This document shows, in pieces, positions 1,627 to 34,965 of a DNA stretch of 34,965 nt (the stretch's first letter is position 1; every line of letters begins with the position of its first letter). This stretch comes from Candidatus Zixiibacteriota bacterium (GTDB taxonomy: Bacteria; Zixibacteria; MSB-5A5; GN15; FEB-12), in NCBI GenBank assembly GCA_028289585.1, contig JANQPI010000039.1:1-34965 (forward strand), written 5' to 3'. The position numbers and the translations under genes were made by a program. A model generated the notes under the pieces. That model saw only the letters and a program-made list of their open reading frames with translations. It was not told the origin of the DNA and searched no databases.

Positions 1627-2025
1627 TCATTCCTCCGGAACGCTTGGCGCCGGGTGGTCACATCCCAACGCCCGGGAACGCTCCCGGGCGACTCTAAACG
1701 CTGCGTCGATTGACCGCTTGCCGGCCGGCGTCCGCTTGTACGCTCGGACTCTGGCTTCGTAAAGCATCTGTTCCCGCAACGCTTCCCGAAGCTCCGGCGT
1801 TCGAAAATGGGCTTTCGAATCATCCGACGTTCGAAAATGGGCTTTCGAATCATCCGGCAAACCAATCCCCCCCGGGCGAACGTCGCCCGCCGGTTCCCTC
1901 GTAATCCGGGCGGGGGGATTGGCTACCGTCGAACGCCGGACCGTTTCCGGCCCGGTTTCCGTTGTGGGGATTGATACGGCCAACGATGCGAGCACGACGC
2001 CGGCGGCGATTGCTGCGGTTCTCAT
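1627..2025 (-). CDS. Small exported or membrane-anchored protein with an internal 10-aa duplication
   Basis: 132 aa from the ATG at 2025, which overlaps the stop of the preceding gene (ATGA). Residues 1-20 (MRTAAIAAGVVLASLAVSIP) form a signal peptide or anchor. The middle is Pro/Gly/Arg-rich. At the centre DDSKAHFRTS/P occurs twice in tandem, encoded by a 30-bp DNA repeat. The C-terminal half is Arg-rich and helical. No family is recognised. A TTG at 2046 is an alternative start. Its place in an early recombination operon is unusual for an exported protein, so a role in host takeover or exclusion is possible. Confidence 0.6.
   Translation of the reverse strand: MRTAAIAAGVVLASLAVSIPTTETGPETVRRSTVANPPARITREPAGDVRPGGIGLPDDSKAHFRTSDDSKAHFRTPELREALREQMLYEARVRAYKRTPAGKRSIDAAFRVARERSRALGCDHPAPSVPEE
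1799..1858. repeat. Tandem 30-bp duplication (two copies)
   Basis: The unit 1799-1828 is repeated at 1829-1858 with one base difference. Each unit contains an inverted repeat (TTCGAAA ... TTTCGAA). The duplication keeps frame and doubles a 10-aa peptide in the exported protein. Confidence 0.9.
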
Positions 2026-2327
2026 TGCCAATTGCTTTCGTTGCAACTGATGATTTGCACAACTCGCAACTCATGTACGGTCGTTTCTGGCTGTTCATCC
2101 AGAATCGTTTCCGTCGTCGGGCCTCCCCGGGCGATTTCTCCTAGCCCTTTCGTTGTCCCCCATCGGCGGATTGTGGAGCAATTGCAAATCACCCAGTAAT
2201 CGTCGGACTTGTGGATTGTCCCCACGAGAACAAACCCACGTTCGCAGACAACGATTGCCCACCGTCCATCTGATGCAACTTTTTGATATTCAACGCCATC
2301 AATAATCACTTGCCTTTTTCCTTTCAC
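2022..2327 (-). CDS. DUF6948-like conserved phage protein
   Basis: 101 aa. After a short basic start, the core (GRWAIVVCERGFVLVGTIHKSDDYWVI ... STIRRWGTTKGLGEIARGG ... ILDEQPETTVHELRVVQIISCNE) resembles the small beta-rich family annotated DUF6948, common in phage early regions. Function unknown. The GTG at 2327 has only GGAAA upstream. A second GTG at 2309 has AAAGGA about 9 nt before it, and the true start may be there. Its 3' end overlaps the next gene by ATGA. Family recognition is from memory of the pattern. Confidence 0.62.
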   Translation of the reverse strand: MKGKRQVIIDGVEYQKVASDGRWAIVVCERGFVLVGTIHKSDDYWVICNCSTIRRWGTTKGLGEIARGGPTTETILDEQPETTVHELRVVQIISCNESNWQ

Positions 2328-2346: not shown

Positions 2347-2586
2347 TTATCCGTCGCCGTAGCCGTCGCCGGAGCCGTAGCCGTTTCCGTCGCCGTATCC
2401 GTCGCCGGAGCCGTAGCCGTTTCCGTCGCCGTATCCGTATCCGTATCCGTAGCCGTAGCCGTCGCCGCCGTGTCTTTCACCGTATCCGTCGCCGTATCCG
2501 TTGCCCCTGTATCCGTATCCGTATCCGTATCCGTCGCCGTCGCCGTAGCCGTAGCCGTAGCCGTCGCCGTTGCCGTGCCCGTTCAT
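2347..2586 (-). CDS. Gly-X repeat microprotein 3 (GDGYG-rich)
   Basis: 79 aa, almost purely alternating Gly-X with X = Asp, Tyr, Asn, Ser or His. Apart from one internal segment (YRGNGYGDGYGERHGG), it has almost no positive charge. The start overlaps the preceding stop (ATGA) and follows a run of G (GGGGGGGGAA) acting as Shine-Dalgarno. The alternation resembles silk-like low-complexity sequence but with many Asp. It is encoded by a hexanucleotide array that leaves several frames open. This frame is preferred because of the coupled starts and stops and the operon direction. Function unknown. Confidence 0.6.
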   Translation of the reverse strand: MNGHGNGDGYGYGYGDGDGYGYGYGYRGNGYGDGYGERHGGDGYGYGYGYGYGDGNGYGSGDGYGDGNGYGSGDGYGDG

Positions 2587-2920
2587 TTCATTCCCCCCCC
2601 GTAGCCGGAGCCGTAGCCGTCGCCGAATCCGTAGCCGTTGCCGCCGTCGCCGGGGCCGTAGCCGGAGCCGTCGCCGTCACCGCCGTATCCGTAGCCGGAG
2701 CCGTCGCCGTCGCCGTCGCCGAATCCGAATCCGTAGCCGCCGTAGCCGTCGCCGAATCCGTAGCCGTTGCCGTTGCCGTAGCCGTATCCGTCGCCGTCGC
2801 CGTTGCCGTCGCCGTAGCCGTCGCCGTCGCCGCTCATTTCATTCCCCCCCCGTTGCCGTCGTCGAATCCGTAGCCGTAGCCGTCACCGCCGCCGTAGCCG
2901 TCACCGTCGCCGTCGCCGCA
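2350..2920. repeat. Hexanucleotide (GCCGTN-type) low-complexity array
   Basis: On the plus strand the sequence is a near-continuous series of six-base units such as GCCGTA, GCCGTC, TCCGTA and GCCGGA, interrupted only by the two identical microprotein junctions near 2585 and 2838. Each unit encodes one Gly-X pair on the minus strand. Copy number is likely variable by slippage, and the assembly here may be collapsed. Confidence 0.9.
2583..2837 (-). CDS. Gly-X repeat microprotein 2 (GDGYG-rich)
   Basis: 84 aa of alternating Gly-X (X = Asp, Tyr, Asn, Phe, Ser), ending GYGGGMK. It begins with MSGDGDGYG at an ATG overlapping the stop of microprotein 1, behind a G-run Shine-Dalgarno. The ending GGG-M-K-stop, with the next ATG overlapping, is the same at the end of microprotein 1, so the genes look like internal duplications. 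Very acidic, no lysine until the last residue. Expected to be disordered or to self-associate. Function unknown. Confidence 0.6.
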   Translation of the reverse strand: MSGDGDGYGDGNGDGDGYGYGNGNGYGFGDGYGGYGFGFGDGDGDGSGYGYGGDGDGSGYGPGDGGNGYGFGDGYGSGYGGGMK

Positions 2921-2929
2921 CATTTTCAT
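2834..2929 (-). CDS. Gly-X repeat microprotein 1 (31 aa)
   Basis: 31 aa: MKMCGDGDG, then Gly-Asp/Gly-Tyr repeats ending DDGNGGGMK. The ATG at 2929 overlaps the stop of the exonuclease gene (ATGA). A second ATG at 2923 has GGAG 8 nt upstream and may be the real start. It is the first of three consecutive cistrons with the same composition and the same GGGMK-stop junction. The single Cys near the N-terminus is the only reactive side chain. Function unknown. Confidence 0.52.
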   Translation of the reverse strand: MKMCGDGDGDGYGGGDGYGYGFDDGNGGGMK

Positions 2930-3930
2930 TTCTCCGATTCGTAGAATCCGGCCGGCTGTTTCCGGGCCGCTCGGGGCTTGTCACGCCCGTAAGCGTTCCC
3001 AAGCGGGCTGACGATATCTTCGCCACGTTCCTCTCGAACGCCCCGGAGAATCGATTCTCGGGCGTCTAGAACGGCTTTAATTGCTACCGTCCGGTCTAGA
3101 TACGCCTCCGGGCTTGCCGCCGCTTCCCCAATCTGGTCGCCGCAATCGTCGCAAACCGCTGCCACGTCGCAGATTCGGCATTTCTCCAGAGTCGGCCAAG
3201 CTTCGCACGTTGCCGGGTCAGCGTCCCGGTAGCGTTGCCAGTAGCCGGCGGCAGATTGAATCCGGGATTGCATCGCCGGCATGCGTCGGCGGTCAAACTC
3301 GACTCGGTATGTCTCCCGGTTTCGCCGGGTATCGAGCACGACAACCCGAACGCAATTGACTGCCGGATAGTTTTGCAGAGTCAACCAAGCGTAAACGTTG
3401 AACTGGAAGCAAGTTGCAACCCGTTCAAAGTCCCAAGACTGCCGGCCGGTTTTCCAGTCGTACAAGTCCACGACTTCGGGTGACTCGGTAGCCGTCAACA
3501 AATCGGCTTCCGCCGTCAGCCGGAGCCCGTAACCGGGAATCTCGACGGCTCCGAATTGGCCAGACTGGGCGCCGGGTCCGCCGTCATATCGGAGAATGTT
3601 CGCCGGGTGAATGTCTCCCAGAATGCCGGCAAGCTTCCAAGCGAACCCGGGAGACACGGCGTCCAACGCTTGCGGTTGCAAGTCCGGACGGGTGGCGTCT
3701 AGGTGTGTCCGGAATTCTTCGGCAATCTCGCCACGGTTCAACGTGCCGTTGGAGTCAACCCACGTCCCCACGGTGTAACCGATTGCGTCGTGAATCTGTT
3801 GGCCAACTTCGGCCGGTTCCGATACGGGATTCTGATACGTATCGGAAAGCCGGGCTTGCCGTGGGCAAACTGCAAACCGCTCCAATTCGGAACGGCCGAT
3901 GATGGGGAATTCTTCGATTTCTAGAGGCAT
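2926..3930 (-). CDS. PD-(D/E)XK exonuclease, Cas4/RecB-like, probable Fe-S protein
   Basis: 334 aa from the ATG at 3930, which shares a base with the preceding stop (TGATG); a longer frame to 4062 is overlap, not gene. Landmarks: GRSELERFAVCPRQ near residue 12-25 (entry motif with Cys22), GQQIHDAIG, AEADLL (catalytic Asp), VVDLYDWKTGR (D-x-K core), FQFNVYAWL (the QxxxYxxL-type motif), then LEKCRICDVAAVCDDC. One upstream Cys plus the downstream cluster is the Cas4/AddB-type 4Fe-4S arrangement. It probably resects dsDNA for recombination with the annealing protein encoded just upstream. A close analogue is the lambda Exo/Red-beta pairing. Confidence 0.85.
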   Translation of the reverse strand: MPLEIEEFPIIGRSELERFAVCPRQARLSDTYQNPVSEPAEVGQQIHDAIGYTVGTWVDSNGTLNRGEIAEEFRTHLDATRPDLQPQALDAVSPGFAWKLAGILGDIHPANILRYDGGPGAQSGQFGAVEIPGYGLRLTAEADLLTATESPEVVDLYDWKTGRQSWDFERVATCFQFNVYAWLTLQNYPAVNCVRVVVLDTRRNRETYRVEFDRRRMPAMQSRIQSAAGYWQRYRDADPATCEAWPTLEKCRICDVAAVCDDCGDQIGEAAASPEAYLDRTVAIKAVLDARESILRGVREERGEDIVSPLGNAYGRDKPRAARKQPAGFYESEK

Positions 3931-4583
3931 CAATACGGGCTTTCGTTGTTGTTGAATAGTTGACCGGCGGGTGCATCGCTCGGAGTGGGCGGCGGCGGCG
4001 GTTCGATTCCGGCCGCTTGCCGCATTGCGTCGTATGCGTCGTCCAACGCTTGGCTTGACCATACGTGCGGTTTCAGAGCATCGGCCGGCGGAACGCTGGT
4101 ATGCTCGGCAACCCAGCTTTGAAACGCCGTCTTGTCTTCACCGTTCGCCGCTTTCCACTCACTGAGGAACAATTCGAATTCGTGGGGCGAAATCCGCTCG
4201 GAACGGGCGGCGGGCTTCGGGTGACTGTCATCCGGTTCCGGGTTGTCGTGCTGTTGCGGCGGGCCGAGCGATTCCATTTCCTCCGCACAAGCAATCCCGC
4301 CGTCAGTCAAGTAGCCGGCAAACGCCAGAGCACGACCAACGGCGATTGTCTCAAGTTTCTCGAACGCTTTTTGCCTCCCGATCTTCCCGAGCGAATGACC
4401 GGTAAACATTCCTTTTTTTGTGGTCACGGTCGCCGTAAACAAGACGTGCCCTTCTTTGAATTCGCAAGACGTTGCCACCTCGCACGTCTCGTTGTCTCGA
4501 TGAAATTCCGCCGAACGTGCCGCAACTTTTGCATAGTCGACGCCCCCCGAAATCTTGATTGTGTCTGTTTTCCGTTCGGTCAC
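3930..4583 (-). CDS. Probable single-strand DNA annealing/recombination protein
   Basis: 217 aa. The N-terminal half has the pattern FTATVTTKKGMFTGHSLGKIG ... AFEKLETIAVGRALAFAGYLTDGGIACAEEMES. This (ETxAIGRALxxAGY..GIASAEE) recurs in phage proteins next to recombination exonucleases, of the Erf/Rad52-like annealing type. The C-terminal half is Pro-rich and acidic with a short helical segment, as in proteins that recruit partners. It sits directly before the Cas4-like exonuclease with overlapping start and stop, forming a recombination pair. Assignment is by pattern and context; a general ssDNA-binding role is the alternative. Confidence 0.66.
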   Translation of the reverse strand: MTERKTDTIKISGGVDYAKVAARSAEFHRDNETCEVATSCEFKEGHVLFTATVTTKKGMFTGHSLGKIGRQKAFEKLETIAVGRALAFAGYLTDGGIACAEEMESLGPPQQHDNPEPDDSHPKPAARSERISPHEFELFLSEWKAANGEDKTAFQSWVAEHTSVPPADALKPHVWSSQALDDAYDAMRQAAGIEPPPPPTPSDAPAGQLFNNNESPY

Positions 4584-30152: not shown

Positions 30153-30878
30153 TCAGACGGCTGTCAAGAAGCGTTGGAACGCCATTGACTCCCGGGCCGC
30201 TTTGGCCGGCTGGCTGGCCTGTCGGGGCTTCATAATCTCCGTGTAAGCGTTTTGCAGACTCCAAAGCGTCCGGGGCTCGAAGTCCTCGTGTTTCGGGTTC
30301 CGCCACTCATTCACCAACGGCATCAGTTGCCGGGATGAAATCAAGCCGGACTCGAACGCCCGCAACATGATTGAATTCGCTTCGTCCCGGTCGATGATGC
30401 GACCAGACAAGCGGGCGATTCGTTGCGTGCTGGCCATGATGAACGGTTCGAGACCAGCCACGGCGGCGTCAATCCGGGTCTCGAACATCTCACGGCCGTT
30501 CAGTGTGTGCTTGGCGGCAATGTCGACTTCCCCGCCAAAGCACAGATTGGAGCAAACCAAGACACGTTCGCCCGCACAGAATTTGGCCGAGAGCGTTTTG
30601 TCCGTGGAGTTGGCCAGCCCGACGGCTACCCGGACTTCGGCGTTGATTTTGCTCTGCAAGTCGAGCGTTGCAAACATCTGGGCGCCGTCGTCGCCCTTGA
30701 TGCCAAACGCCGAATCGATGATTTCGAACCCGTGACGGTTCAAAGTCGACTCGGCAACGTCCACAACGTCGGAATGCGGGATTGGCTGCCACGTCTCAGT
30801 GGCTTCCGGAGTCGGAATCAAAGCCAAGTCGTTGCGGCTTGTCGTGGCGGCGTCGTTTTCGAGCATCAAACTTGTCAT
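30153..30878 (-). CDS. DUF932 protein
   Basis: 241 aa from ATG 30878 (GGGAG 8 nt upstream); a frame to 31172 runs through the promoter and the GGA array and is rejected. RHGFEIIDSAFGIKGDDGAQMFATLDL ... VRVAVGLANSTDKTLSAKFCAGERVLVCSNLCFGGEVDIAAKHT is the DUF932 phage/plasmid pattern. Function not established; usually in early phage or plasmid regions. First gene of the replication operon, under a promoter paired with that of the 31952-32527 gene. Confidence 0.8.
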   Translation of the reverse strand: MTSLMLENDAATTSRNDLALIPTPEATETWQPIPHSDVVDVAESTLNRHGFEIIDSAFGIKGDDGAQMFATLDLQSKINAEVRVAVGLANSTDKTLSAKFCAGERVLVCSNLCFGGEVDIAAKHTLNGREMFETRIDAAVAGLEPFIMASTQRIARLSGRIIDRDEANSIMLRAFESGLISSRQLMPLVNEWRNPKHEDFEPRTLWSLQNAYTEIMKPRQASQPAKAARESMAFQRFLTAV

Positions 30879-30942
30879 CACAGAAACTCCCGTTGCTTGG
30901 GTTGTTGTTGCTTGGCCGGCTTTGTCGCCCGCCACTGACATA

Positions 30943-30985
30943 ATGATAGCGTCAGTCGCCCCGGGGGTCAACCGTATTTGTCCCC
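30943..30985 (-). promoter_or_regulatory. Early promoter A with GGGGACAAA box
   Basis: Minus strand: GGGGACAAA (30985-30977), 5 nt, TTGACC (30971-30966), 17-nt spacer, TATCAT (30948-30943). The leader then reads ATGTCAGTGGCGGGC, closely matching promoter B. The in-frame ATG at the -10 edge is probably within the promoter and not a start. Confidence 0.78.
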
Positions 30986-31060
30986 TTTTTTGGAAATTCC
31001 CATCCACTCCGTTCCGATCCCCTCCCCTCCGTTCCGATCCCCTCCCCTCCGTTCCGTTCC

Positions 31061-31085
31061 ACTCTGTACGCCTAGAAGGAAAGCC
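31061..31085. repeat. 25-bp direct element, copy 1
   Basis: Core TCTGTACGCCTAGAAGGAAA followed by GCC (31063-31085) is identical in all four copies. Exactly five pentamer lengths long, so it keeps the array register. Confidence 0.92.
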
Positions 31086-31170
31086 TCTCCTCTCCTTTCC
31101 GCTCCCCTCCATTCCTCTCCATTCCACTCCTTTCCACTCCCCTCCGTTCCGATCCCCTCCTTTCCATTCC

Positions 31171-31195
31171 ACTCTGTACGCCTAGAAGGAAAGCC
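31171..31195. repeat. 25-bp direct element, copy 2
   Basis: Same 25 bp as copy 1, 110 bp further on. Separated by 17 NNTCC units. Confidence 0.92.
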
Positions 31196-31256
31196 GATCC
31201 CCTCCTCTCCTTTCCCATCCAATCCAACTCCTTCCCTATCCACTGCTCTCCATTCC

Positions 31257-31281
31257 TTTCTGTACGCCTAGAAGGAAAGCC
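31257..31281. repeat. 25-bp direct element, copy 3
   Basis: Core identical; the first two bases differ from the other copies (TT for AC). It follows an irregular pentamer stretch with a one-base insertion. Confidence 0.9.
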
Positions 31282-31376
31282 TCTCCCATCCACTCCGTTC
31301 CTATCCCCTCCCCTCCAGTCCCTTCCTCTCCGTTCCCGTCCCCTCCATTCCTATCCCCTCCCCTCCGATCCGCTCC

Positions 31377-31401
31377 ACTCTGTACGCCTAGAAGGAAAGC
31401 C
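31377..31401. repeat. 25-bp direct element, copy 4
   Basis: Identical to copies 1 and 2. Closest to the gene upstream in the minus transcript. Confidence 0.92.
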
Positions 31402-31458
31402 TCTCCCCTCCTCTCCTCTCCTCTCCAGTCCGCTCCTCTCCACTCCTTTCCTCTCCAA

Positions 31459-31884
31459 TCAGACCTTACGTTCCTTCAGCATCTTAAGCCGCCGTTTCAC
31501 CCGCCGTTGTTCCCGGCTCATTGACTGGGCAACTCGGGATTGAACCATTTCGGTTTCACGCTTCCTTGCCAGTTCTTCGTTATTCAACTTCGATTCGTCG
31601 ATGTCCTGAATCCGCCTGACGGACCTCCGGATGCCCCTGGCGTGAACCTCGAAGCGCTGGGGGACGTAGTCGACCGCTTCCGAATCCCTCAGTAATCGCA
31701 AGTCGCCGCCGTCTTGCCGGCAAACAATGCCCAATTGCCGTTCAATGCGCCCCCCGAGTCCCATCGCATAAAAGCTAAACGCCTGAGTTTCCCGTCCGTG
31801 CCCGCTCCATAGTTCAAGCTTTTCGGCGGGTATCACGTCCCCTTTTTTAAGGTGCGCAATCGGGGCTTCTACAACCTTTTTCAT
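31459..31884 (-). CDS. Unknown early protein, basic C-terminus
   Basis: 141 aa from ATG 31884 with AAAGGGGATACGGAC upstream. N-terminal beta part (MKKVVEAPIAHLKKGDVIPAEKLELWSGHGRETQAFSFYAMGLG) and a highly basic helical C-terminus (RVAQSMSREQRRVKRRLKMLKERKV) suggest nucleic-acid or ribosome association. Its stop is 2 nt before the GGANN array, so the array is the 3' UTR of this gene if transcription continues. No family recognised. Confidence 0.65.
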   Translation of the reverse strand: MKKVVEAPIAHLKKGDVIPAEKLELWSGHGRETQAFSFYAMGLGGRIERQLGIVCRQDGGDLRLLRDSEAVDYVPQRFEVHARGIRRSVRRIQDIDESKLNNEELARKRETEMVQSRVAQSMSREQRRVKRRLKMLKERKV

Positions 31885-31951
31885 GTCCGTATCCCCTTTA
31901 GGAGAATTGAAGGAAACCGCCCGGTTGACTGCCGGGCGGTCGTGCGGACGA

Positions 31952-32527
31952 TCAAGCAAATTCGCAACTGAAACGCCCGTATTGCGGGCGCCAGTCTGAC
32001 AGCCCGATACGGGCGCCGGCGATTTCAAACCATTCTTCGACTTGCTCCCGGTTTACTTGCTCCGGGTCAAACATAAGCTTGACCGTCAGTTTCCAGCCGG
32101 ACGGGAACAGCGGGCGAGTTCGCATTACTCGGGAAGTGCCGACTCGCACGGACTTGACCAATCGAAAGAGCGGGTCAGCCCATAGCTTTTCAACGCTTTT
32201 CGGGCCTTTGTAGTCCAAGCGAAACTTGCCGGCGATAACCAATCCCGCTTTGGCAAGCGGCCCCTCTTTTTGCTTCTTGGCGGCGGCAATCAACATTGAA
32301 TGAATGTTTTCGGCCGGCCAGCACGGTCGGCCTTCGTCCAAGTAAAGGCCGGCCTCCCACTCTTTACGGGACATTTCCTCAAAATCGTCATCCGTCTTCT
32401 TACGCTTCGAAGAAATCAACTTGATTGACTTGGCGTAAGGATTGAGCGGGTCACACAATTGCCCGTTGTGCATCAACTGTGCTTCGGTCCCCGTCAACGT
32501 ACATTCCAATTCCTCAAAAACTGCCAT
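31952..32527 (-). CDS. Conserved phage early protein
   Basis: 191 aa from ATG 32527 (AGGGG and AAAAGG upstream). LMHNGQLCDPLNPYAKSIKLISSKRKKTDDDFEEMSRKEWEAGLYLDEGRPCWPAENIHSMLIAAAKKQKEG ... SVRVGTSRVMRTRPLFPSGWKLTVKLMFDPEQVN ... IAGARIGLSDWRPQYGRFSCEF is a pattern I associate with a widespread uncharacterised phage protein (MHN..L.DP, E.GLYxD, GLGDWRPRYGRF). Role unknown. Transcribed from promoter B. Its leader is the target of the predicted antisense RNA. Confidence 0.72.
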   Translation of the reverse strand: MAVFEELECTLTGTEAQLMHNGQLCDPLNPYAKSIKLISSKRKKTDDDFEEMSRKEWEAGLYLDEGRPCWPAENIHSMLIAAAKKQKEGPLAKAGLVIAGKFRLDYKGPKSVEKLWADPLFRLVKSVRVGTSRVMRTRPLFPSGWKLTVKLMFDPEQVNREQVEEWFEIAGARIGLSDWRPQYGRFSCEFA

Positions 32528-33657: not shown

Positions 33658-34965
33658 ATGCGAAAATTCTTGGTTGCTTTGGTTCCGTTGGTACTGCTGG
33701 CGATTTCCGCCAGCGTGCTCGGAGACGTTCACCGAATCGATTACCAATGTGCAAAATGCGGGGAGCATCACAACCACAGCGCCGCAAGCGCCGTCCCCAT
33801 CATTCAGCGGAACGGGCAAACGTTCTTCTTGACTGCCGGCCACGTCTCCGAGCGGCCACGCCAGACGGTTTGGATTGCCGGCCGGCCCTATCCCGTGACT
33901 TGGCTGGCATTGGAGTACACCCGCAACTCGGACGGAAGCTTGCCGGATCTCGCTTTGCTCTCGGTCAAGTATTCGGGGCCAATCAAGCTAGAGCGTATCG
34001 GCAGCGTCCGGGCCGGCGAAACCGTTCTGGTTAACGGTTGGCCGGGCGGGAAGCATACGAAGCGAACCGCACGGGTTCTCCGGGTGAACGGCTGGGGGCT
34101 GACGCTCAATCAGCCAAGCAAGTCCGGCGATTCGGGCGGCGGCATTTTCAATAGCCGGGGGGAATTGGTCGGAATCACTTCGTTCACGACGCAATGGCAA
34201 ACCGGCTGTTCGAGTCATCCGCAAATGCGGAAATTTGTTTCGGATAACCGCCCGGGCCGTGGGCCGAATTTCTACCCGGAAACTTCGCCGGCCGTGCCGT
34301 CAGACGCATTGACCGCATATGTTGTGTTTTCGAAATGGTGCCAAGAGTCCAACCGGCTACAACGTGACTTCGCATCCGGACAGATTCGGGCTCCGGGCAT
34401 GCGTGTGATTTGGGTTGACTGGGATTCCCAGCGGGACAAAGCCCGCCGCATTATTCACGCAACCGGGACAACGGGCCGCACGGAAGTCCCGTTTATTGCC
34501 GTCGGTCGTGGGCAACGGGTTGCCGTCGCCGATACGGGTTACACAACGGCGAATCGATTGAATCAAAGTCTTGCCCGGTTCGCACGTCAAACCGCTACGC
34601 ATCGGAATTTACACGGCGTTCGCCGAACGCAAGACCCGTTCGATTGTGGGGCGGTCAATCTGCCGGCTGGCGGATTCTCTGCGGGTCAGTTGCCGGCCGG
34701 GTTCCAAGACGTTGAACCGCCGACGGAACCGCCGGATTGCAGTTGCCCGCCGCCGGTTGTCCCGCCGACGGAACCGCCGGGACCGCCAAACACTAACCCG
34801 ATCCCGCCGCTCCCGCCCAATTACGTTCCGACCGATGCGATTCCCGGAATTTTCGTCCCGATTGAACCGGGCGCCAGTATCCCAACGCCGCCAATCGAAC
34901 CGGTCCCGCCAGTTGACCCGCCGACGATTCAACCCGTGCCGGCGCCGCCCACAATCCAAAGCGGC
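33658..34965 (+). CDS. Exported trypsin-like serine protease with thioredoxin-like segment (N-terminal part; continues at 1-270)
   Basis: ATG at 33658 is preceded by GGGAG at 33645-33649. Across the circular junction the protein is 492 aa. Residues 1-22 are a signal peptide. A CAKC pair lies at 31-34. A trypsin-like domain follows, with His62 in TAGHV, Asp97 in DLALL and Ser159 in GDSGGG, so the triad is complete. Around residues 218-290 a thioredoxin-like segment has WCQES (Cys228, resolving Cys replaced by Ser) and a VPF cis-proline motif. A Pro-rich stretch (about 355-430) leads to a short basic C-terminus. It probably acts in the periplasm or at the cell surface. It lies on the strand opposite almost all other genes, followed by a second exported protein. 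Substrate unknown; lysis, superinfection exclusion or host-envelope modification are possible. Confidence 0.88.
   Translation, partial: MRKFLVALVPLVLLAISASVLGDVHRIDYQCAKCGEHHNHSAASAVPIIQRNGQTFFLTAGHVSERPRQTVWIAGRPYPVTWLALEYTRNSDGSLPDLALLSVKYSGPIKLERIGSVRAGETVLVNGWPGGKHTKRTARVLRVNGWGLTLNQPSKSGDSGGGIFNSRGELVGITSFTTQWQTGCSSHPQMRKFVSDNRPGRGPNFYPETSPAVPSDALTAYVVFSKWCQESNRLQRDFASGQIRAPGMRVIWVDWDSQRDKARRIIHATGTTGRTEVPFIAVGRGQRVAVADTGYTTANRLNQSLARFARQTATHRNLHGVRRTQDPFDCGAVNLPAGGFSAGQLPAGFQDVEPPTEPPDCSCPPPVVPPTEPPGPPNTNPIPPLPPNYVPTDAIPGIFVPIEPGASIPTPPIEPVPPVDPPTIQPVPAPPTIQSG
34867..34965. repeat. Terminal direct repeat, right copy
   Basis: Exact copy of 1-99, lying inside the proline-rich region of the exported protease gene. 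It shows the window is a closed circle cut arbitrarily within that gene. Confidence 0.93.

Follow-up and report, generated by a model that had tools for sequence, protein, structure and literature searches.

Proteins of the Sm fold class often bind RNA, and some eukaryotic Sm/LSm proteins carry low-complexity tails, Gly-Arg or Asn-rich, among them the Gly-Arg repeats of SmD1 and the tail of LSm4. Bacterial viruses encode a further family of small proteins, Pfam PF22253 (DUF6948), for which no paper was found in the open-access literature. Nor was any paper found there on a phage pair of an Sm-like protein and a protein of alternating glycine, subscription papers and outside preprints lying beyond the scope of that search. 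The survey in PMC6821194 covers phage low-complexity regions in general, and the accessible part of it names no such family; PMC9305737 contains a time course of phage Barba18A, nothing on the pair was found in PMC6715854, and a search for phage Sm-like proteins listed a review of Hfq. The pair described here is a conserved two-gene module in many unrelated bacterial viruses.

The stretch of DNA analysed (the window) is a whole contig of 34,965 bases, bears an exact 99-bp direct terminal repeat at 1-99 and 34867-34965, and is probably a complete phage genome, circular or terminally redundant. It reads as a complete phage since terminase, portal, major head, tape-measure and replication-initiation genes are all aboard. 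Five genes follow one another on the minus strand from 4062 down to 2022: an exonuclease, three microproteins in which glycine alternates with another residue (Gly-X, hereafter GX), and a 101-aa protein (Table 1). The gene upstream of the exonuclease has a product that may resemble a single-strand annealing protein. Searches of viral contigs and of phages gave no useful relatives of the window exonuclease, which among the 41 genomes of relatives occurs in one, the window itself; a search of phages with the phrog_11717 protein was likewise without result.

Table 1. Features of the GX region of the window
Feature	Positions	Strand	Description
Gene upstream of exonuclease	3930-4583	-	phrog_11717 (unknown function), E 1.8e-10
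PD-(D/E)XK exonuclease	2926-4062	-	PF12705, E 5.9e-17; phrog_69 exonuclease, E 1.9e-10; first gene coupled to the GX run
GX microprotein 1	2834-2929	-	31 aa, 14 Gly, net charge -4; ATG overlaps exonuclease stop; Shine-Dalgarno-like GGAG just upstream
GX microprotein 2	2583-2837	-	84 aa, 43 Gly, net charge -12; ATGA overlap 2834-2837; G-run resembling a ribosome-binding site
GX microprotein 3	2347-2586	-	79 aa, 38 Gly, net charge -9; ATGA overlap 2583-2586; junction identical
Hexanucleotide array coding the three GX proteins	2351-2918	.	Tandem Repeats Finder periods 6, 12 and 18
Sm-like partner, DUF6948 superfamily	2022-2327	-	101 aa, GTG start; A1/A5 alignments, profile comparison, AlphaFold model, fold searches

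Glycine makes up 45, 51 and 48% of the three GX ORFs, and the residues between the glycines are Asp, Tyr, Asn, Ser and Phe. A 4-nt ATGA overlap joins each GX ORF to its predecessor, the stop of the exonuclease ORF included, and both junctions within the run consist of the same GGGGGGGGAATGAA followed by ATGA. An earlier note on this DNA had reported three coupled ORFs at 2347-2929 with two identical junctions, and the coordinates, lengths, coupling and junctions all hold. Its description of the alternation as nearly strict is apt for the 84- and 79-aa ORFs and loose for the 31-aa ORF (longest strict runs of 4, 15 and 19 units, in gene order). The partner gene was missed by that note. The window GX proteins have no PHROG match, and their sole resemblance in Pfam, to TrAA12, is one of composition and falls below the cut-off of that family; for two relatives, L161 and L095, it lies above the cut-off. 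The array is almost certainly three protein genes.

Two further repeats were observed in the window. A 30-bp tandem duplication (97% matches) at 1793-1856, within ORF 1627-2046, gives a peptide repeat of SDDSKAHFRT type. At 30998-31457, pentanucleotide TCCNN tracts occur with four exact copies of the 23-bp TCTGTACGCCTAGAAGGAAAGCC (at 31063, 31173, 31259 and 31379), near ORFs 30153-31172 (DUF932) and 31459-32028, the former as called overlapping the start of the tract. The arrangement is iteron-like and perhaps marks an origin or operator.

The hexamer pattern itself, (GGNNAC)x6, was found at at least 120 loci in IMG/VR, and at 100 of the 120 listed a short ORF encodes a Gly-X run with a mixture of X residues. 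Bacterial and archaeal genomes gave 118 loci with the same pattern and only five with such an ORF, the others being mostly homopolymeric (GD)n, (GN)n and (GY)n stretches or longer ORFs. Of 80 genomes examined in the host order, two contain the pattern: the one from which the window comes and G070. Translation of the genes upstream of GX ORFs at the viral loci revealed that a protein of one kind, of about 100 aa, is repeatedly encoded directly before them. This partner falls into four sequence subtypes, A1 to A4, and the last protein of the window run is of the A1 subtype, placed there after the GX genes. Adjacency of partner and GX was seen at 81 of 100 loci (14 lie at contig edges and five are without it), a count that is not independent, the profiles having been built partly from the same loci.

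Scans of viral contigs with the partner, made with no Gly-X criterion, gave the same association. With the A1 subtype, GX (runs of at least 7 units) is present at 76 of the best 80 loci among at least 420 relatives: at 68 within 1.5 kb downstream and at 8 upstream as in the window, two loci being cut by contig ends and two having none. Of these last two, L376 has the tail of a GX ORF at the contig edge, and in L381 the partner gene is interrupted by an in-frame stop and only a shortened remnant of GX lies next to it. When the canonical DUF6948 subtype was used instead (the A9 set; runs of at least 5 units), GX was found at 80 of the best 80 loci among at least 423 relatives, downstream in 79 and upstream in one (L468, which has only a remnant downstream). 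These counts include near-duplicates, nonredundant loci being 59 of the 76 A1-set GX loci and 67 of the 79 A9-set loci, and contigs that were also among the query rows (L348, L398 and L430, L447). The loose A9 criterion took a run in the wrong frame at L433, L434 and L461; a closer test found the true GX frame at L433 and L434. The L461 array, which lies after 3273, is internally frame-broken, passing from Gly-X to Arg-Val and back, through either assembly error or natural frameshift. As a control, GX ORFs were sought at 80 terminase-gene loci (811 kb) and found at none with a threshold of at least 10 units, one that 69 of the 80 A1-set loci pass. In the host phylum an A1-type partner occurs in 2 of 132 genomes, both with GX alongside. 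Pairing of GX with its partner is thus very probably near-obligate in viruses.

Named phages agree. Tblastn with partner proteins led to seven GenBank records (ctOK67, Rheinheimera Barba19A, ct8d5349, Iodobacter phiPLPE, Pectobacterium Ymer, Chlorobiaceae CV-1-33 and Vibrio IKEMa6-1), and in all seven GX lies directly downstream; in ctOK67 it is annotated as 'lamprin', and in Barba19A the two genes are gp022 and gp021. At locus L106 partner and GX are fused in one ORF. No direct relatives of GX itself were found in viral contigs, which low-complexity filters may explain.

Several observations on the viral loci stand apart from the pairing. The GX gene of phiPLPE (L344, about 1164-1409) is missing from the GenBank annotation, and that of CV-1-33 (gene25; L346 4292-4537) is called in the wrong frame as MAMAMALA... 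Contigs often break at GX arrays: of the 80 contigs L430-L509, 19 stop no more than 700 nt from where the partner gene matches, and 14 GX ORFs either run off the contig unterminated or terminate close to its end, so metagenomes may undercount these arrays. Gly-X stretches also lie inside larger phage proteins (L137 1821-2510, L183 9406-10167, L126 1659-2282, and L156 2-547 with DUF7666), which suggests that GX serves elsewhere as a domain. The GX ORFs of L101, L122, L128, L134, L161, L164 and L170 share an N-terminal domain of GACxDGV type, mostly with an A4 partner; a search of phages with this domain was without result.

The two genes are generally nested. Among A1-type loci where GX comes directly after the partner (54 once redundancy is removed), 49 have a GX start that falls within the partner gene, and at 40 of the 54 it is formed by the last base of the preceding codon and the TG of a conserved C-terminal Trp codon, NNA-TGG being read as ATGG and NNG-TGG as GTGG. 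Just ahead of the nested start, the codons of a C-E-x-x-K-W motif often contain a Shine-Dalgarno-like GAGG or GGAG. In the canonical subtype 73 of 79 loci have the Trp-nested start, 67 of them at exactly -13 nt, and a stricter test, in which the nested start had to open a glycine-rich ORF, gave 70 of 80 in the A9 set. GG units of period 6 lie in the frame of the nested start in 1485 of 1922 cases in the A1 set and in 2049 of 2489 in the A9 set, part of the out-of-frame units being GGG codons counted in two phases. Together the nested start and the share of units in frame point to an architecture common to distant subtypes and to arrays that are read as protein. Frame-breaking arrays in relatives, which the earlier note had named as the sign of a non-coding repeat, are represented by L461, and the balance is mostly against a non-coding repeat. 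The window departs from the common gene order in that the partner follows GX and GX is triplicated. At 1991-2046 its Sm-like gene retains the C-terminal N-W motif with no GX after it, and the next ORF (MRTAAIAAGVVLASLAV...) starts at the overlapping ATGA.

The partner subtypes are related by profile comparison (A1-A2 E 6.5e-6, probability 85; A1-A3 5.3e-16; A2-A4 1.3e-17). The canonical subtype, as represented by L106, is Pfam PF22253 (E 1.1e-22; 80.4 bits, cut-off 27). The window protein matched no Pfam family at E 0.001, neither LSM, Hfq nor DUF6948; profile similarity, the same predicted fold and the same linkage to GX place it in a wider DUF6948 superfamily. Its AlphaFold model (pLDDT 90, pTM 0.75) gave Sm/LSm chains for nearly all of the best 50 Foldseek matches in the PDB, with probability 1.00 and E about 1e-3; 7xm1 and 7eq9, also among the 50, are a designed particle. 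The best VIA-align Z, 8.4, exceeds by only a moderate margin what common barrels attain. Sm/LSm proteins were matched independently by a model of L106, and in the viral structure library (BFVD) the window model matches DUF6948 proteins and phage Sm-like proteins. The partner is named Sm-like by fold only, from the Sm/LSm matches of models from two subfamilies; this is an assignment by structure to a kind of barrel that is common. It is likely Sm-like by predicted fold, a bent five-strand barrel, rather than a proven member of the Sm family.

Beside this conserved partner the arrays vary markedly. Over 59 nonredundant arrays, Tyr takes a fraction of 0.41 of the X positions, Asp 0.30, Asn 0.16 and Ser 0.07, with His at 0.5%; Lys and Arg are absent from most GX chains. 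Different phages use different synonymous hexamers, GGC-NAC, GGC-NAT, GGG-NAC, GGA-NAC or GGT-NAC, to write one amino-acid alphabet. Mean entropy by hexamer position across 66 arrays is 0, 0, 0.22, 1.29, 0.39 and 0.26 bits, and the first base of the X codon exceeds both third positions, which are mostly synonymous, in 61 of the 66. Targeted mutagenesis of X codons was rejected, since variation falls on their first base and leaves the second mostly fixed; the pattern is unlike the adenine mutagenesis of diversity-generating retroelements. X residues follow one another almost at random (neighbours are equal in 592 cases versus 575 expected), though not wholly so, as 13 of 55 arrays have an excess of internal repeats, that is duplicated segments (p <= 0.05).

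Length changes in whole hexamers. L360 and L361 have no differences in 231 partner positions and arrays of 108 and 210 nt; L358 and L359 differ at 1 of 312 and have arrays of 174 and 204 nt. In 23 pairs of near-identical phages in 6 groups, all differences in array length are multiples of 6, some of them zero, and 60 listed of 115 Rheinheimera Barba records span 691, 697, 721 or 733 nt; lengths from metagenome contigs may suffer from assembly. The simplest reading is that whole-hexamer turnover is fast and that selection holds alternation, frame and composition, not order. The GX tail of the fused L106 model has pLDDT of about 39-57, and aromatic residues are spaced by Gly, Ser, Asn and Asp as in prion-like or condensate-forming low-complexity proteins; the chains are predicted to be disordered.

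The early-region setting suggested by the earlier note, a recombination operon of DNA-metabolism genes, is borne out in the window by the upstream exonuclease and in the annotated phages fetched by nearby Erf, exonuclease VIII, SSB, RecE and Bet genes. Neighbours of A1-type loci include helicases, DNA methylases, RecT, ERF, YqaJ, DnaB, RecA and Gp157 with no dominant family. The tallies cover a hand-picked set, 87 of the 132 genes upstream and 85 of the 131 downstream, chosen mostly by dropping the shortest. In ctOK67 a RelE-like annotation adjoins the pair. Neighbours this varied imply no single pathway, and the pair is better seen as a portable early-region unit than as a fixed part of a recombination operon.

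Array evolution fits a function set by composition and length, not sequence, better than it fits a specific binding interface. We tentatively favour, at somewhat less than even confidence, an early nucleoprotein assembly in which an Sm-like ring is joined by disordered Gly-X chains that act by composition and not by order. The module is widespread in phages and comprises a member of the DUF6948 superfamily, predicted to have the LSm fold, and a (Gly-X)n chain, predicted to be disordered, in which Tyr, Asp, Asn and Ser make up most of X; with the GX start inside the last Sm-like codons in most phages, the two are made together. Arrays grow and shrink by whole hexamers, and on this reading selection keeps the alternation and a Tyr-rich composition spaced by Asp, Asn and Ser. 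The Sm-like protein may assemble into a ring or small oligomer and so bind nucleic acid of the phage at an early stage of infection; the GX chains may surround it with many weak Tyr-Tyr contacts in a Gly-spaced, mostly acidic network. Such a condensate, or dense protein brush, would shelter or organise replicating and recombining DNA or early transcripts. A condensate-type function of the pair is possible, and is offered slightly more guardedly than the assembly itself; the condensate that the earlier note had suggested thereby takes a more specific form.

A counter-defence or toxin-antitoxin-like unit could also take the form of two small genes that overlap and move as a unit between differing gene neighbourhoods. 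The products would neutralise one another, or else a host factor, with GX varying fast under recognition by a host defence or target. A conserved partner with a hypervariable array, and the RelE-like annotation in ctOK67, would suit such a unit. Array changes, however, scramble order yet keep composition and alternation, unlike an arms race at an interface, and to our knowledge no toxin type consists of disordered dipeptide repeats; we regard this reading as improbable.

Rather less probable again is that the repeat RNA or DNA is itself active, for instance by offering serial binding sites to CsrA or the Sm-like protein, or as a recombination hot spot beside the recombination genes. Hexamers are homogeneous within an array, the predicted fold class of the partner is one that often binds RNA, and the window holds 19 ACGGA in 583 nt (32.6 per kb, versus 2.4 per kb over the rest of that strand), so the earlier note was right that the window transcript is dense in this motif. 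CsrA binding, which it had proposed, is not supported as a general function, however. GGA is 5.5% of the Gly codons in 59 arrays versus 22.9% in the other ORFs of relatives, being dense only in some arrays, that of the window included, and a CsrA sponge with a conserved GGA motif was accordingly rejected as the general function. The wobble positions of the motif also differ between phages whereas the dipeptide alphabet is constant, the arrays keep the nested frame, and His is nearly absent. A DNA-mimic surface, another proposal of that note, was rejected as general too, since net charge ranges widely in acidity (-23 to -4) and many arrays have Tyr, Asn or Ser at most X positions.

It is very unlikely that GX has a structural role or sits at a surface, for example as a fibre or as an adhesin rich in glycine. 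Gly-X alternation is silk-like and some phage adhesins are glycine-rich, yet the genes are grouped with early DNA-metabolism genes and mostly not with tail genes, as the earlier view that they are not fibres would have it. A neutral slipping repeat, open by chance, may practically be dismissed and is refuted as a general account: the arrays clearly expand and contract and one (L461) is frame-broken, but the near-obligate partner, nested start, frame keeping and deep conservation all stand against it.

The gene pair occurs in hundreds of phage contigs (to judge by the partner relatives in the two scans) and no name was found for it beyond a DUF, GX being masked by low-complexity filters, missed by annotation or misframed. 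With the partner fixed, the array reshuffled and the composition kept, it constitutes a natural experiment on selection in low-complexity proteins. Isolates exist (Rheinheimera Barba, Pectobacterium Ymer, Iodobacter phiPLPE), which makes the function directly testable.

Compared with known systems, the early nucleoprotein assembly favoured here has several partial counterparts. The canonical partner matches the model of PF22253, and the window protein is tied to DUF6948 models by profile comparison and fold; its subtype is unmatched by the Pfam model at E 0.001, and no description of a GX partner or of an Sm fold was found for DUF6948. With Sm, LSm and Hfq proteins, including phage-type Sm-like proteins (3by7 and cyanophage entries), the two subfamilies share the predicted fold, whereas the partner lacks an LSM or Hfq sequence match and has a loop-helix insertion (WGTTKGLGEL) between strands 3 and 4. 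Prion-like domains such as those of FUS and hnRNPA1, and silk, resemble GX in their Gly, Tyr, Ser, Asn and Asp composition, silk also in dipeptide alternation, but phage GX has strict Gly at every second residue, stands alone and is phage-borne. The eukaryotic Sm/LSm proteins with such tails likewise combine an Sm-fold domain with a Gly-dipeptide or low-complexity chain; phages usually encode the chain as a protein of its own, coupled to the Sm-like one, with Tyr, Asp, Asn or Ser at X in place of Arg. It is possible, though less likely than not, that the pair is their viral counterpart, with a hypervariable (Gly-X)n chain, nested in the 3' end of the partner gene, that would join an Sm-like ring in a nucleoprotein condensate early in infection and be selected for bulk composition while hexamer turnover reshuffles its sequence.
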